Positions 31,485-55,005 of a stretch of 64,000 bases of DNA are shown here, one piece after another. Position numbers and translations under genes: made by a program. The notes under the pieces were generated by a model that saw nothing but the letters and a program-made list of their open reading frames with translations, made no database searches and was not told the origin of the DNA. Every line of letters begins with the position of its first letter. Position 1 is the first letter of the stretch. The DNA is from Geodermatophilus sp. DSM 44513 (GTDB lineage Bacteria; Actinomycetota; Actinomycetes; Mycobacteriales; Geodermatophilaceae): positions 4,464,001 to 4,528,000 of the forward strand of contig NZ_CP135963.1 in assembly GCF_032460525.1 (NCBI RefSeq). Reading direction: 5' to 3'.

Positions 31485-31512
31485 TGTCGGCCGCTCCCGG
31501 CGCCTCCTTGAG
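31485..31512 (-). promoter_or_regulatory. sigma-28-like promoter of the cheB operon
   Basis: On the minus strand CTCAA (31512-31508), 16 bases, then GCCGACA (31491-31485). The rest of the 412-bp gap to the GlgC-like gene holds the dispersed repeat copy at 31591-31657 and a TAGCGG box (31739-31744) six bases before that gene's ATG. Confidence 0.72.
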
Positions 31513-31590
31513 CCGATCACGGGGATCGGTTGCACCCGACCGGCAGTTCACCCGGTCACCGCCTCACCGCCGTCGACACGTCGCCCAGGG

Positions 31591-31657
31591 CCGGCGATGA
31601 TCAGGTCAGCTGATCCACGGAGGTCCTGGCTCACTGCCGGTCGTGAGCCAGGACCCC
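31591..31657 (+). repeat. dispersed palindromic repeat, copy 2
   Basis: GATGATCAGGTCAGCTGATC is followed by a 13-bp hairpin (31622-31634 with 31643-31655). It matches the reverse complement of 17694-17760 at all but a handful of positions. A partial extra GGTGAGCCAGGAC follows at 31662-31674. Confidence 0.9.
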
Positions 31658-31750
31658 CGACGGTGAGCCAGGACGGCGGTCACCTCGTGGCGGACGCGCT
31701 CGGGTGTCGCCTGTGCGGGTGAACCTGGCCCGGGCGGGTAGCGGCCGGGC

Positions 31751-32932
31751 ATGGCACTCCCCCGGGTCCTCGTCCTCGTGCTGGCCGGCGGTGCCGGTGG
31801 CCGCCTCGAGCTGCTCACCGAGCAGCGCGCCAAGCCCGCCGTCCCCTTCGCCGGGGTGTACCGGCTGATCGACTTCCCGCTGAGCAACTGCCAGCACTCC
31901 CAGCTGCCCGACGTCTGGGTGTCGGTGCAGCACCACCCGGCGTCGCTGTCCCGGCACCTGGCCAACGGCCGGCCGTGGGACCTCGACCGCACCGACGGCG
32001 GGCTGCTGGTGCTGCCGCCCTACCAGGGCACCGACCGCGGCGGCTGGGTCTCGGGGACGGCGAACTCGCTGTGGCGCTACTCGCCGCTGATCCGCGACTT
32101 CGACGCCGACGCGCTGGTCGTGCTCAGCGCCGACGCGGTCTACAAGCTGGACTACCGCGAGGTCGTCGACGGGCACCTGGAGTCCGGTGCGGAGGTCACC
32201 ATGGTCACCACCGAGGTGGCGGCGGACGACGCGTCGCGCTACGGCATCGTGCAGGTCGGCGAGGGCGGCCGGGTCACCGACTACGCGTACAAGCCCGACG
32301 AGCCGAGAACCACCACCGCGACCAACGAGGTCTTCGTCTTCTCCCCCGGCCCCACGCTGGACCGGCTGGAGGCGTTGACCGCCGAGCACGGCGAGGAGGC
32401 CCTGGAGGACCTCGGCACCCACCTGCTGCCGGGGCAGACCGGTGACGGGGCGGCCCGCGCGCACCCGTTCGACGGCTACTGGCGCGACGTGGGGACCGTG
32501 GACTCCTACTGGCGGGCCCACCAGGAGTTCCTCTCCGCCGACCCGCCGCTGGACCTCGACGACCCGCGCTGGCCGGTGCACACCCGCGGCGGACGGCACA
32601 GCGCGGCCCGGGTGCTGCTGGACTCCGCGGTGGACAACAGCCTCATCTCCGGCGGCACCCGGGTGCTGGGCGACGTCCACGGCTCGGTGCTGTCCCCCGG
32701 CGTGGTCGTCGAGGAGGGCGCCCGCGTCGTCGACTCGGTACTGCTGCCCGGGGCGCGGGTCCGCGCGGGGGCAACGGTCACCCGCGCGGTCCTGGACAGC
32801 GAGGTGGTCGTCGGCCAGCGCGCCACGGTGGGCGGGGACGGCGCGGTCACCCTGGTCGGCCGCGGAGCGGAGGTCGACGCCGGCACCGAACTGCCAGCCG
32901 GCGCCCGCTTCCCCGACCCCGCCGCCGGCTGA
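31751..32932 (+). CDS. GlgC-like glucose-1-phosphate nucleotidyltransferase (393 aa)
   Basis: An N-terminal nucleotidyltransferase domain opens LVLAGGAGGRLELLTEQRAKPAVPFAGVYRLIDFPLSNCQHS; YGIVQVGEGGRVTDYAYKP and FDGYWRDVGTVDSYWRAHQ follow. A left-handed beta-helix with hexapeptide-like repeats comes last (SLISGGTRVLGDVHGSVLSPGVVVEEGARVVDSVLLPGARVRAGA). The family makes ADP-glucose for glycogen or maltose-1-phosphate synthesis. The usual GGRGSRL phosphate loop reads GGAGGRL here, and the WYxGTADA motif is replaced by YQGTDRGGWVSGTANSLW, so nucleotide or sugar preference may differ. No other glycogen gene is nearby; otsAB lies 30 kb away. Confidence 0.82.
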   Translation: MALPRVLVLVLAGGAGGRLELLTEQRAKPAVPFAGVYRLIDFPLSNCQHSQLPDVWVSVQHHPASLSRHLANGRPWDLDRTDGGLLVLPPYQGTDRGGWVSGTANSLWRYSPLIRDFDADALVVLSADAVYKLDYREVVDGHLESGAEVTMVTTEVAADDASRYGIVQVGEGGRVTDYAYKPDEPRTTTATNEVFVFSPGPTLDRLEALTAEHGEEALEDLGTHLLPGQTGDGAARAHPFDGYWRDVGTVDSYWRAHQEFLSADPPLDLDDPRWPVHTRGGRHSAARVLLDSAVDNSLISGGTRVLGDVHGSVLSPGVVVEEGARVVDSVLLPGARVRAGATVTRAVLDSEVVVGQRATVGGDGAVTLVGRGAEVDAGTELPAGARFPDPAAG

Positions 32933-32948
32933 GGAGGACCCCGCGTCC

Positions 32949-32999
32949 CCCCATCCCTCGCAGGCTCGGGACGGGCCCCTGACGCAGGGCCGTTCCAGC
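32949..32999 (-). repeat. REP-like family, short copy
   Basis: Read on the minus strand: GCTGGAACGGCCCTGCGTCA, then GGGGCCC and a CGAGCCTGCGAGG end, matching the start and end of the copy at 40838-40958. It lies between the convergent GlgC-like and triple-CheW genes and can fold into a short hairpin at 32971-32993. Confidence 0.7.
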
Positions 33000-53006: not shown

Positions 53007-53209
53007 CGGCTGACCCAGATCTGCACGTGCGGGAGCCGAGACGGTTCCCGGCCTGTGGGTCCGCTGGGGTGCTGCCGCCACGACGCATCCCCCGAGGGGT
53101 GTTGGGGGACGACCGTGGTGTACACCATGGATCTCGGCAGCCTGCGTCACCTCCCTGACGGGGACCCGTGGGCGTGTCGCCGCACGCGGCGGGGCCACGG
53201 GACACCGAC

Positions 53210-53242
53210 GGCCGCGGTGCCCCGTGGCGGGGCACCGCGGCC
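53210..53242. terminator. 14-bp hairpin between convergent GGDEF-EAL and MCP-B genes
   Basis: GGCCGCGGTGCCCC (53210-53223) pairs exactly with GGGGCACCGCGGCC (53229-53242) around GTGGC, 20 bases beyond the MCP-B stop. Confidence 0.9.
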
Positions 53243-53262
53243 GGAACGGGCGCGACTGGTGG

Positions 53263-54897
53263 TCAGAAGCGGAAGCGGCCCACCAGCTCCTGCAGCTCGG
53301 CCGACATCCGGGAGAGGTCCCCGGCCGCCGATGACGTGTTGCTCGCCCCGCTGGTGGTCTCCTGGGCGGCCTGGGCCACCCCGGTGACGTTGCGGGCGAT
53401 CTCCGAGGCGCCGGCCGCGGCCTCGGAGACGTTGCGGGCCATCTCGTTGGTGGTCGCGGTCTGCTCCTCCACCGCGGAGGCGATGGTGGTCTGCCGGTCG
53501 GAGATCTGCGCCACGATCGTGCTGATCTCCTCGATGGCGGTGACCGCCGCCGTGGTGTCGCCCTGGATGGCCTGCACCCGGCGGGCGATGTCCTCGGTCG
53601 CCTTGGCCGTCTCCTGCGCCAGCTCCTTGACCTCGTTGGCCACCACCGCGAAGCCCTTGCCGGCCTCCCCGGCCCGCGCCGCCTCGATCGTGGCGTTCAG
53701 CGCCAGCAGGTTCGTCTGCTCCGCGATGCTGGTGATCACCTTCACCACGTTGCCGATCTCCGCCGACGACTCTCCGAGCTTGGTCACCGTCGCGCTGGTG
53801 GTCTCCACCGCCGTCACCGCCCGCGCCGCCACGTCGGAGGCCTCCGCGGCGTTCGTGGCGATCTCCCGGATGGACGCACCCATCTCCTCGGTGCCCGCCG
53901 CCACGGTCTGCACGTTGCTGGACACCTCCTCGGCGGCCGCCGACACCGCGCCGGCCTGCGCCGCGGACTCCTGGGCGCTCGTGGACATCTGCGCCGAGGT
54001 GGCCGACAGCTCCTCCGAGGCCGCCGACAGGGTCTGCGCGTTGGACCCGATGCTGCGCATCGCCGTGGCCATGTTCTCGACCGCGGTGTTCAGGGCGCGG
54101 GCCATGGCACCGGCCTCGTCCCGGGTGTGCAGGTCCAGGCGCTGGTCGAGCCGCCCCTCCGCGACACCCTGCAGCACCTCCACCGTGCGCCGCAGCGGGG
54201 CGGCGATCATCCGGCCCAGCCCCAGGGCCAGCCCGAGCCCCAGGCCGACGGCACCGGCCACGACCCCGAGGATGAGCAGACCGGCGGAGTCGGCGGACCG
54301 GGCGGTGGACCGGGCGGCGGCCTCAGCCTCGTCGGCCTGGTAGGCCGCGAGACCGTCCAGGGCCGCATACGCCTCGTCCACGATCCCGGTGTGCTTCGCC
54401 GAGCGGACGGCGTTGAAGGTGGCGATGTCGCCCACCCGGCTCAGCGGCAGCAGCTCCGCGTCCCGGATGGAGCGGTACTGCCCCCACTGGGCGGTGAAGG
54501 TGTCCAGCAGTCCGCGCTCGGTGGCGGACAGCTCCGTGTCGTAGGTCTGCACCGCCGCGTCGAGCGCCGTGTCCGCATCGACGATCTTGGTGTCCGCCTT
54601 GCCCTTCGCCTCGGCGGTGGCAGCCAGGGCGTGACCGCTCAGCTCCAGCCGCGACTGCAGCGCCGTACGCCGGATCTCGGCCACCTCCATCCCACCGAGC
54701 AGGTTCTGCTCGTAGATGCCCTGGGCGTCGCTGGCCGCCTGGTTCAGCTTGGTGTAGCCGACGAACCCGACCGCAGCGGTCAGGCCGACGACCACGAGGA
54801 AGCCGGCGAGCAGCTTCTGTGCGGTCCGCAGGTTGCGGAAGAACCCGAGCGGCCCGCCGGCGGGGCGCCGGCCGGTCTCGGACGGAGTGGTGGCCAT
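53263..54897 (-). CDS. methyl-accepting chemotaxis protein B (544 aa)
   Basis: Closest relative of MCP-A in this set: same PLGFFRNLRTAQKLLAGFL start, membrane segments at about 27-49 and 212-235 (AGLLILGVVAGAVGLGLGLALGLGRMI), a four-helix outer sensor with different sequence (IYEQNLLGGMEVAEIRRTALQSRLELSGHALAATAEAKGKADTKIV), HAMP, and an almost identical signalling domain ending LVGRFRF. The sensor part has diverged while the signalling part is held, so ligand specificity probably differs. It has its own sigma-28-like promoter and shares the GATTGGACC leader with MCP-A. Confidence 0.95.
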   Translation of the reverse strand: MATTPSETGRRPAGGPLGFFRNLRTAQKLLAGFLVVVGLTAAVGFVGYTKLNQAASDAQGIYEQNLLGGMEVAEIRRTALQSRLELSGHALAATAEAKGKADTKIVDADTALDAAVQTYDTELSATERGLLDTFTAQWGQYRSIRDAELLPLSRVGDIATFNAVRSAKHTGIVDEAYAALDGLAAYQADEAEAAARSTARSADSAGLLILGVVAGAVGLGLGLALGLGRMIAAPLRRTVEVLQGVAEGRLDQRLDLHTRDEAGAMARALNTAVENMATAMRSIGSNAQTLSAASEELSATSAQMSTSAQESAAQAGAVSAAAEEVSSNVQTVAAGTEEMGASIREIATNAAEASDVAARAVTAVETTSATVTKLGESSAEIGNVVKVITSIAEQTNLLALNATIEAARAGEAGKGFAVVANEVKELAQETAKATEDIARRVQAIQGDTTAAVTAIEEISTIVAQISDRQTTIASAVEEQTATTNEMARNVSEAAAGASEIARNVTGVAQAAQETTSGASNTSSAAGDLSRMSAELQELVGRFRF

Positions 54898-54976
54898 GGG
54901 AGTTGGTCCAATCAGGAGTAGGGACTGCACCGCGGGAGGAGACGGCGCCGTCCCTGACGAGCGCCCTCAGGAGTCG

Positions 54977-55005
54977 TTGTCGGCGGGGCGGGTCCGACTG
55001 TCGAG
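54977..55005 (-). promoter_or_regulatory. sigma-28-like promoter of MCP-B
   Basis: On the minus strand CTCGA (55005-55001), 16 bases, GCCGACAA (54984-54977), about 80 bases before ATG 54897 and beyond the MCP-C terminator. Confidence 0.7.

Follow-up and report, generated by a model that had tools for sequence, protein, structure and literature searches.

Regulons of sigma-28 factors are textbook knowledge, most of the evidence coming from proteobacteria and Bacillus, and the class 3 promoters of enteric FliA (sigma-28) follow the consensus TAAA-N15-GCCGATAA. Work by Jang (2016), Kimura (2019) and Hashiguchi (2020) is said to deal with FliA-family sigma factors of the actinobacterium Actinoplanes missouriensis and its flagellar or type IV pilus genes, the 2020 paper with three such sigmas. 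The sigma factor WhiG shares promoter specificity with the flagellar sigmas, according to the available part of PMC8325347. The present analysis concerns a 64,000-nucleotide (nt) stretch of Geodermatophilus sp. DSM 44513 (the window, C1:4464001-4528000 of a single-contig genome of 4.63 Mb and 75% G+C), in which five sites resembling sigma-28 promoters precede five chemotaxis units. From sequence comparison, the five sites are most probably sigma-28 (FliA/WhiG) promoters that would co-activate the chemotaxis units with the late flagellar genes, their likeliest reader being FliA with a family-specific -35 preference.

Candidate promoters of the window

The five predicted promoters, each located by exact string and matrix, are as follows (window coordinates; MCP, methyl-accepting chemotaxis protein):

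31484..31512, minus strand: predicted sigma-28-type promoter of cheB-cheR-cheY-cheX-cheY, CTCAA-N16-GCCGACAA
36707..36735, minus strand: predicted sigma-28-type promoter of the PAS chemoreceptor and the three-CheW-domain gene, CTCAA-N16-GCCGACAG
40714..40741, minus strand: predicted sigma-28-type promoter of cheA-cheW, GTCAA-N15-GCCGATGA
42674..42701, minus strand: predicted sigma-28-type promoter of MCP-A, CTCCA-N15-GCCGAGAA, the weakest of the five
54977..55005, minus strand: predicted sigma-28-type promoter of MCP-B, CTCGA-N16-GCCGACAA

Each of the five strings proposed in an earlier note was found exactly at these places, on the minus strand and upstream of the five chemotaxis units. The boxes ahead of cheB and the PAS receptor, which that note called identical, are so over the letters it quoted, but the eighth base of the -10 box differs. 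The -10 box is of the sigma-28 class (GCCGATAA-like), with GCCGA in 5/5 sites and positions 6-8 variable, and the -35 box of that class (TAAA-like, 15-nt spacing) occurs in a variant form, TCAA, TCCA or TCGA, with a spacer of 15 or 16 nt.

Upstream regions were taken from 464 kb, comprising the window, 100 kb around the flagellar cluster and fifteen other 20-kb stretches. They numbered 289, the 258 controls being those that belong neither to the window chemotaxis units, nor to the flagellar cluster, nor to an MCP gene at 216 kb. With a leave-one-out matrix, no control scored as high as the cheB, PAS or MCP-B site, one as high as MCP-A and four as high as cheA. A second matrix, made from 27 sites of nine other Geodermatophilaceae (the relatives' matrix), left no control as high as cheB or cheA, two as high as PAS, two as high as MCP-B and three as high as MCP-A, and placed all five window sites within the top 13 of the 289 regions. 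The other eight regions of the top 13 are those of flbD, flgN, fliC, the MCP gene at 216 kb and a flagellar-cluster gene for an unknown protein of 114 residues, together with three controls, which belong to a MerR regulator, a DUF4234 gene and a GGDEF gene. The equal frequency at other genes for which a matrix scan had been proposed as a check was not seen, the sites beating nearly all 258 controls.

Here and throughout, genes were called by codon usage with a program of our own for which the window was the training set, and with no curated annotation; starts in relatives outside the family may be misplaced. The chemotaxis genes of the window all lie on the minus strand (Pfam):

30220..31338, minus strand: cheB, response regulator and methylesterase (Pfam)
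29399..30223, minus strand: cheR (Pfam)
28089..29385, minus strand: cheY (29014-29385), cheX (28448-29017) and cheY (28089-28451), overlapping and 3' of cheR (Pfam)
34577..36661, minus strand: cytoplasmic PAS chemoreceptor, PAS domains and MCP signalling domain (Pfam)
33003..34574, minus strand: three-CheW-domain protein of 523 residues, 2 nt after the PAS receptor (Pfam)
38358..40670, minus strand: cheA (Pfam and NCBIfam)
37912..38355, minus strand: cheW (Pfam)
40964..42595, minus strand: MCP-A, with 4HB, HAMP and MCP signal domains (Pfam)
53263..54897, minus strand: MCP-B, with 4HB, HAMP and MCP signal domains (Pfam)

The distance from the end of the -10 box to the start codon is 145 nt for cheB, 45 for the PAS receptor, 43 for cheA, 78 for MCP-A and 79 for MCP-B. 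The cheB leader (31339-31483), at 145 nt, compares with 45-52 nt from -10 box to start in six Blastococcus relatives.

The weaker sites that had also been proposed fared differently. Those of MCP-C and MCP-D are background. With the relatives' matrix, 101 of the 258 controls score at least as high as the best MCP-C site. The site named for MCP-D reaches 7.0 with the window matrix, a score surpassed by the 7.6 or more of at least 70 of the 289 regions; the best MCP-D site by the relatives' matrix, matched by 4/258 controls, is a different one. A candidate ahead of MCP-E (11.8 with the window matrix) was rejected, as it scores 3.1 with the relatives' matrix and 31/258 controls are as high. Regarding the terminators supposed to lie between the units, the interval scanned (31000-46000) contains no T-tract terminator-like site, with 1.1 expected. 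Of the decayed MCP, a C-terminal piece of roughly 180 bp with a frameshift is left (about 57222-57400), which shares 82-84% identity with the 3' ends of MCP-C, MCP-D and MCP-E. No start was found near 57594, where the earlier note had a promoter for it.

Distribution in the genome and in other species

The pattern TCVA-N15/16-GCCGANAR has 22 matches genome-wide, six of them intergenic by our gene calls, and the four of these six that lie at most 200 nt from a same-strand start are the window sites of cheB, the PAS receptor, MCP-A and MCP-B. Two strict patterns gave 47 matches, 34 inside called genes and 13 intergenic. Eleven of the 13 lie within 200 nt before a same-strand start. Five of these are the window sites, and the other six precede flbD, an MCP gene (1247 kb), a GGDEF-EAL gene (191.7 kb), a GGDEF gene whose call is doubtful (359 kb), an Amidase_2 gene (3636 kb) and a gene of metallopeptidase-like type (3679 kb). 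A third pattern adds a glycosyltransferase-2 gene at 4007 kb (C1:4007310). Glycosyltransferase-2 genes stand behind candidate CTCAA-N16-GCCGATG(A/G) promoters here and in three other genomes of the genus (L246, L257 and L260).

The genome has 11 MCP-domain genes, six in the window (five of the HAMP type, at 40964-42595 and 53263-61236; Pfam) and five elsewhere. Among the four examined outside the window, those at 216 kb and 1247 kb have clear sites, that at 170 kb a weaker one, and that at 176 kb has no site in its upstream region; the fifth lies at 1747 kb. In the flagellar cluster, the relatives' matrix left no control of the 258 as high as flbD, which precedes motA and then motB, or flgN, two as high as fliC and 26 as high as flgB, and nine further regions lack the motif, with scores of 0.2 bits or less. 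By its predicted sites this is what a late (class 3) regulon would show, the motif standing before late and not early flagellar genes, since it marks flbD, flgN and fliC without flgB and the nine other regions. The same cluster has csrA beside fliW in an actinobacterium (C1:892336-892710), and a further flagellin N-domain match lies outside it (C1:1057494-1057904).

That base composition or codon phase in a genome of 75% G+C has produced the motif as an artefact is extremely unlikely. TCAA-N15/16-GCCGA does have 124 matches against 56 for the reversed pattern, and the 34 of 47 stricter matches inside genes are what in-frame codon pairs would give; such short-pattern counts (1144 for TCNA-N16-GCCGA), which coding sequence dominates, were dropped as evidence. 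A permissive threshold for flgN boxes, likewise, was reached by 635/2000 shuffles. In upstream regions, however, the sites beat all or nearly all controls, their positions and spacings are kept between species, and a stricter score of 8 is passed by 45 of 56 flgN upstreams against 172 of 2800 shuffles.

Other genomes provide a second line of evidence. CheA has its best matches among named genomes in Blastococcus and Geodermatophilus (85-90% identity, best segment). Six Blastococcus relatives have CTCAA-N15/16-GCCGAT 45-52 nt before cheB, Geodermatophilus DSM 45219 has CTCAA-N16-GCCGAAGG before the homologue of the PAS receptor, and the cheA site is found at the same position before cheA in many actinomycetes. 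When 38 actinobacterial cheA upstreams (window excluded; the species are not independent) were scored with the window matrix against 300 dinucleotide shuffles, p was at most 0.05 in 26 and at most 0.01 in 10. For the other che genes of these loci, with cheA left out, a matrix from the window only reached at least 12 bits in 13/72, vs 1/142 non-che genes. In 16 genomes of the genus, the pattern CTCAA-N15/16-GCCGATRR occurs 45 times and its reverse 11 times; two of the 16 have no match. Thirty loci sampled from 18 genomes include 28 that are intergenic and 7 that stand before flbD, others standing before glycosyltransferase-2 genes and before uncharacterised genes that recur between genomes. 

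Position and conservation alone would fit a bipartite operator as well as a promoter, and the boxes could be the binding site of a transcription factor common to motility genes. We consider this very improbable, given two asymmetric boxes 15-16 nt apart that face the gene, in genomes with that sigma factor, and a -10 core, GCCGA, equal to the sigma-28 core published in PMC8325347 (in its available part).

FliA, WhiG and the -35 box

Control by a FliA/WhiG-type factor encoded elsewhere, as the earlier note had argued, is supported: both sigma genes are present outside the window, and the motif also precedes late flagellar genes, other chemotaxis genes and the che genes of other actinomycetes. 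Sigma-70 region 3 gives five matches in the genome: besides WhiG and a factor of the FliA type, these are two strong general ones and one to a SigF/SigB-type factor. The relevant genes are:

C1:887835-888818, minus strand: FliA-type sigma factor, between fliC and flgN, 327 residues from GTG
C1:3278418-3279191, minus strand: WhiG, 390.4 bits against a cut-off of 343
C1:3917623-3918081 (L197), minus strand: RsiG, twin-motif anti-sigma factor of WhiG dependent on cyclic di-GMP (c-di-GMP), PF22802, 65 and 37.5 bits

The window and the FliA-type gene are at least 1.05 Mb apart on the 4.63-Mb chromosome. In our view the predicted assignment of this gene to the FliA family is safe, because it adjoins fliC and flgN and because of its region 2.4. 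Both helices of RsiG read E-x3-S-x2-R-x3-Q-x3-D, as described in the available part of PMC8325347. FlgM (PF04316) had no match at E<=10 genome-wide with a model that works in E. coli and B. subtilis controls, although a highly divergent FlgM is possible. In addition, a degenerate sigma-like protein (weak Sigma70_r2) is encoded after csrA in the flagellar cluster (C1:893487-894581, plus strand); its named homologues are nearly all from Geodermatophilaceae and several are annotated 'flagellar biosynthesis protein FliA'.

The upstreams of flgN and fliC were scored with base 5 of the -35 box neutral and spacers of 14-17 nt equal, to avoid bias, and were judged at the permissive threshold mentioned above. 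Outside Geodermatophilaceae, 42 of 46 flgN upstreams pass, base 5 being G in 38, T in 2, A in 1 and C in 1, and the spacer 15 nt in 39 and 16 in 3, so that the flgN promoter of other actinomycetes is CTCAG-N15-GCCGAT. In Geodermatophilaceae, 10/10 pass, all with A at base 5, and the spacer is 16 nt in 8 and 15 in 2. The fliC upstreams behave in the same manner: outside the family 35/37 pass, with G at base 5 in 23, A in 9, C in 2 and T in 1 and with a 15-nt spacer in 32, and within it 7/7 pass, with A at base 5 in 6 and a 16-nt spacer in 6. This change from G to A runs counter to the G+C content of 75%. Fisher's test on the flgN shift gives 7e-10, a value that is no true probability, since the shift is possibly a single event.

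The -35 recognition helix of FliA differs at two diagnostic positions, which we take to be the counterparts of R584 and K593 in E. coli sigma-70, residues at the -35 interface. After removal of six duplicate genes (10 + 54 remained; four FliA loci with no called FliA gene stand outside the count), these positions are L and R in 10/10 Geodermatophilaceae, where they are near-invariant, and in the 54 others E/E in 40, Q/E in 6, D/E in 3 and E/Q in 2, the helix pattern being unmatched in 3. The corresponding residues are E and K in WhiG and, by alignment, E and Q in E. coli FliA. The -35 box and the matching part of FliA therefore appear to have changed together in Geodermatophilaceae.

Two simpler rules were given up. 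That the second helix residue alone sets base 5 is broken by Kineococcus and by the L273 FliA, and a division into two clean subclasses, a WhiG-type CTCAA-N16-GCCGAGAA and a FliA-type CTCAG-N15-GCCGATGA, fits Cellulomonadaceae and relatives but is blurred in Geodermatophilaceae and serves as a lead only.

In the mechanism that we favour, the sigma-28 promoters would switch on the chemotaxis units together with flgN-flgK-flgL, fliC and flbD-motA-motB. Region 2.4 of FliA (DELRSGDWASRSVR) fits the GCCGA -10 box, and region 4.2, with its two family-specific substitutions, would recognise, instead of CTCAG-N15, a -35 box of CTCAA or CTTGA that is often followed by a spacer of 16 nt. RNA polymerase with FliA would start transcription at the sites, the two helix residues would be the cause of the -35 change, and the timing of the chemotaxis promoters relative to flagellar assembly is likewise inferred.

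That WhiG is instead the main or an equal reader is rather unlikely. In that case high c-di-GMP would arm RsiG, RsiG would hold WhiG, and chemotaxis would be silenced. WhiG (390.4 bits) and a twin-motif RsiG are both encoded here. The available part of PMC8325347 speaks for this reading as well: besides the shared promoter specificity, it has RsiG in 16/16 Geodermatophilaceae and 5 of 12 Rubrobacter promoters before genes of c-di-GMP enzymes. In this genome too, GGDEF or GGDEF-EAL genes have sites (191.7 kb, 1607 kb and, doubtfully, 359 kb), and CTCAA-N16 is found upstream of fliA in 11/17 genomes with a WhiG of at least 340 bits and in 0/7 below. The 17 genomes, however, span few clades, and FliA-like paralogues in genomes with an absent or doubtful WhiG (Nocardioides, Actinoplanes; L217, L220 and L222) sometimes have CTCAA sites, so this association is not clean and is a lead only. 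One cross-genome promoter scan covered sites at least 15 nt from the start, near-start fliA sites being outside its range. In Cellulomonas, Cellulosimicrobium and two Actinotalea (L212, L213, L214 and L224), CTCAA-N16 ends 7-8 nt before the fliA start, and a leaderless fliA message is therefore predicted. A takeover by WhiG would moreover leave the near-invariant new residues of FliA unexplained, and genomes in which no WhiG passes the NCBIfam cut-off, such as those of Aeromicrobium and Actinoplanes, retain the promoters of cheA and flgN. These surviving promoters, and a FliA helix that differs in the very family whose -35 box differs, favour FliA as the reader.

Several observations weigh against the favoured mechanism. 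A similar promoter is predicted for WhiG, the fliA promoter of this genome is itself degenerate compared with its relatives, and the FliA-type gene scores 152.5-153.3 bits with TIGR02479 (NCBIfam FliA_WhiG), under the curated cut-off of 189.6, a criterion that taken by itself would deny it the name FliA. The association of FliA with the -35 box may reflect one evolutionary change in one family; Kineococcus has an E/E FliA, yet its flgN site is CTCAA-N15, the L273 FliA (E/Q, with Q at the second position) is paired with CTCAG, fliC sites outside Geodermatophilaceae carry A at base 5 in 9/35, and the cheA spacer remains 15 nt within the family. A flagellar-cluster gene at 869585-870559 (identity not assigned) has a marginal score of 9.4 bits, with the site 8 nt from its start. 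Finally, the relatives' 27 sites were themselves located with the window matrix, which makes the second matrix test less than fully independent, in contrast to the leave-one-out test.

A tentative extension, which we hold to be rather unlikely, joins the two sigma factors. The CTCAA-N16 sites and the L/R FliA could mean that FliA was re-specified (E/D/Q to L, E to R), its -35 preference moving from CTCAG-N15 to CTCAA-N16 and converging on the predicted WhiG promoter, so that motility and chemotaxis promoters would be readable by both FliA and the RsiG-held WhiG. If true, this would place swimming under a sigma switch of the c-di-GMP second messenger.

Comparison with known systems

A partial literature search returned no account of a sigma-28 chemotaxis regulon in Geodermatophilaceae or of a -35 shift there. 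At its core the system is most probably an ordinary sigma-28 regulon, here extended to late flagellar genes; its unusual feature is that, in one family, promoter and sigma factor appear to have changed in parallel. A flgN promoter common to the actinomycetes as a class, and a family that departs from it along with its sigma factor, offer a natural experiment in which shifts of -35 specificity can be followed in a sigma factor and its regulon. As for the coexistence of WhiG and RsiG, the short list of promoters makes the role of their switch in the unicellular Geodermatophilaceae directly testable.

As in the enteric FliA class 3 regulon, late flagellar, motor, chemotaxis and receptor genes would stand under one alternative sigma factor, and the -10 core GCCGA and a spacing of about 15 are shared. 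Unlike in enteric bacteria, the -35 box is CTCAA or CTTGA with a spacer of 15 or 16, FlgM was not found in the search described above, and a WhiG-RsiG pair is present alongside.

In Actinoplanes missouriensis, FliA-family sigmas control flagellar and type IV pilus genes, as cited in the available parts of PMC8325347 and PMC11064477. Actinobacterial FliA-type sigmas thus direct flagellar transcription there, as is predicted here. The cheA promoters of Actinoplanes, unlike those of this genome, are CTCAG-N15-G(C/T)CGATGA, and Actinoplanes lacks RsiG according to the available part of PMC8325347, whereas this genome encodes one.

The WhiG-RsiG-c-di-GMP switch of Streptomyces and Rubrobacter, as set out in the same part of PMC8325347, is resembled in that WhiG and a twin-motif RsiG are encoded together with promoters of the same class. 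The outputs given there are sporulation in Streptomyces and type IV pili in Rubrobacter, and here chemotaxis would be a possible output.

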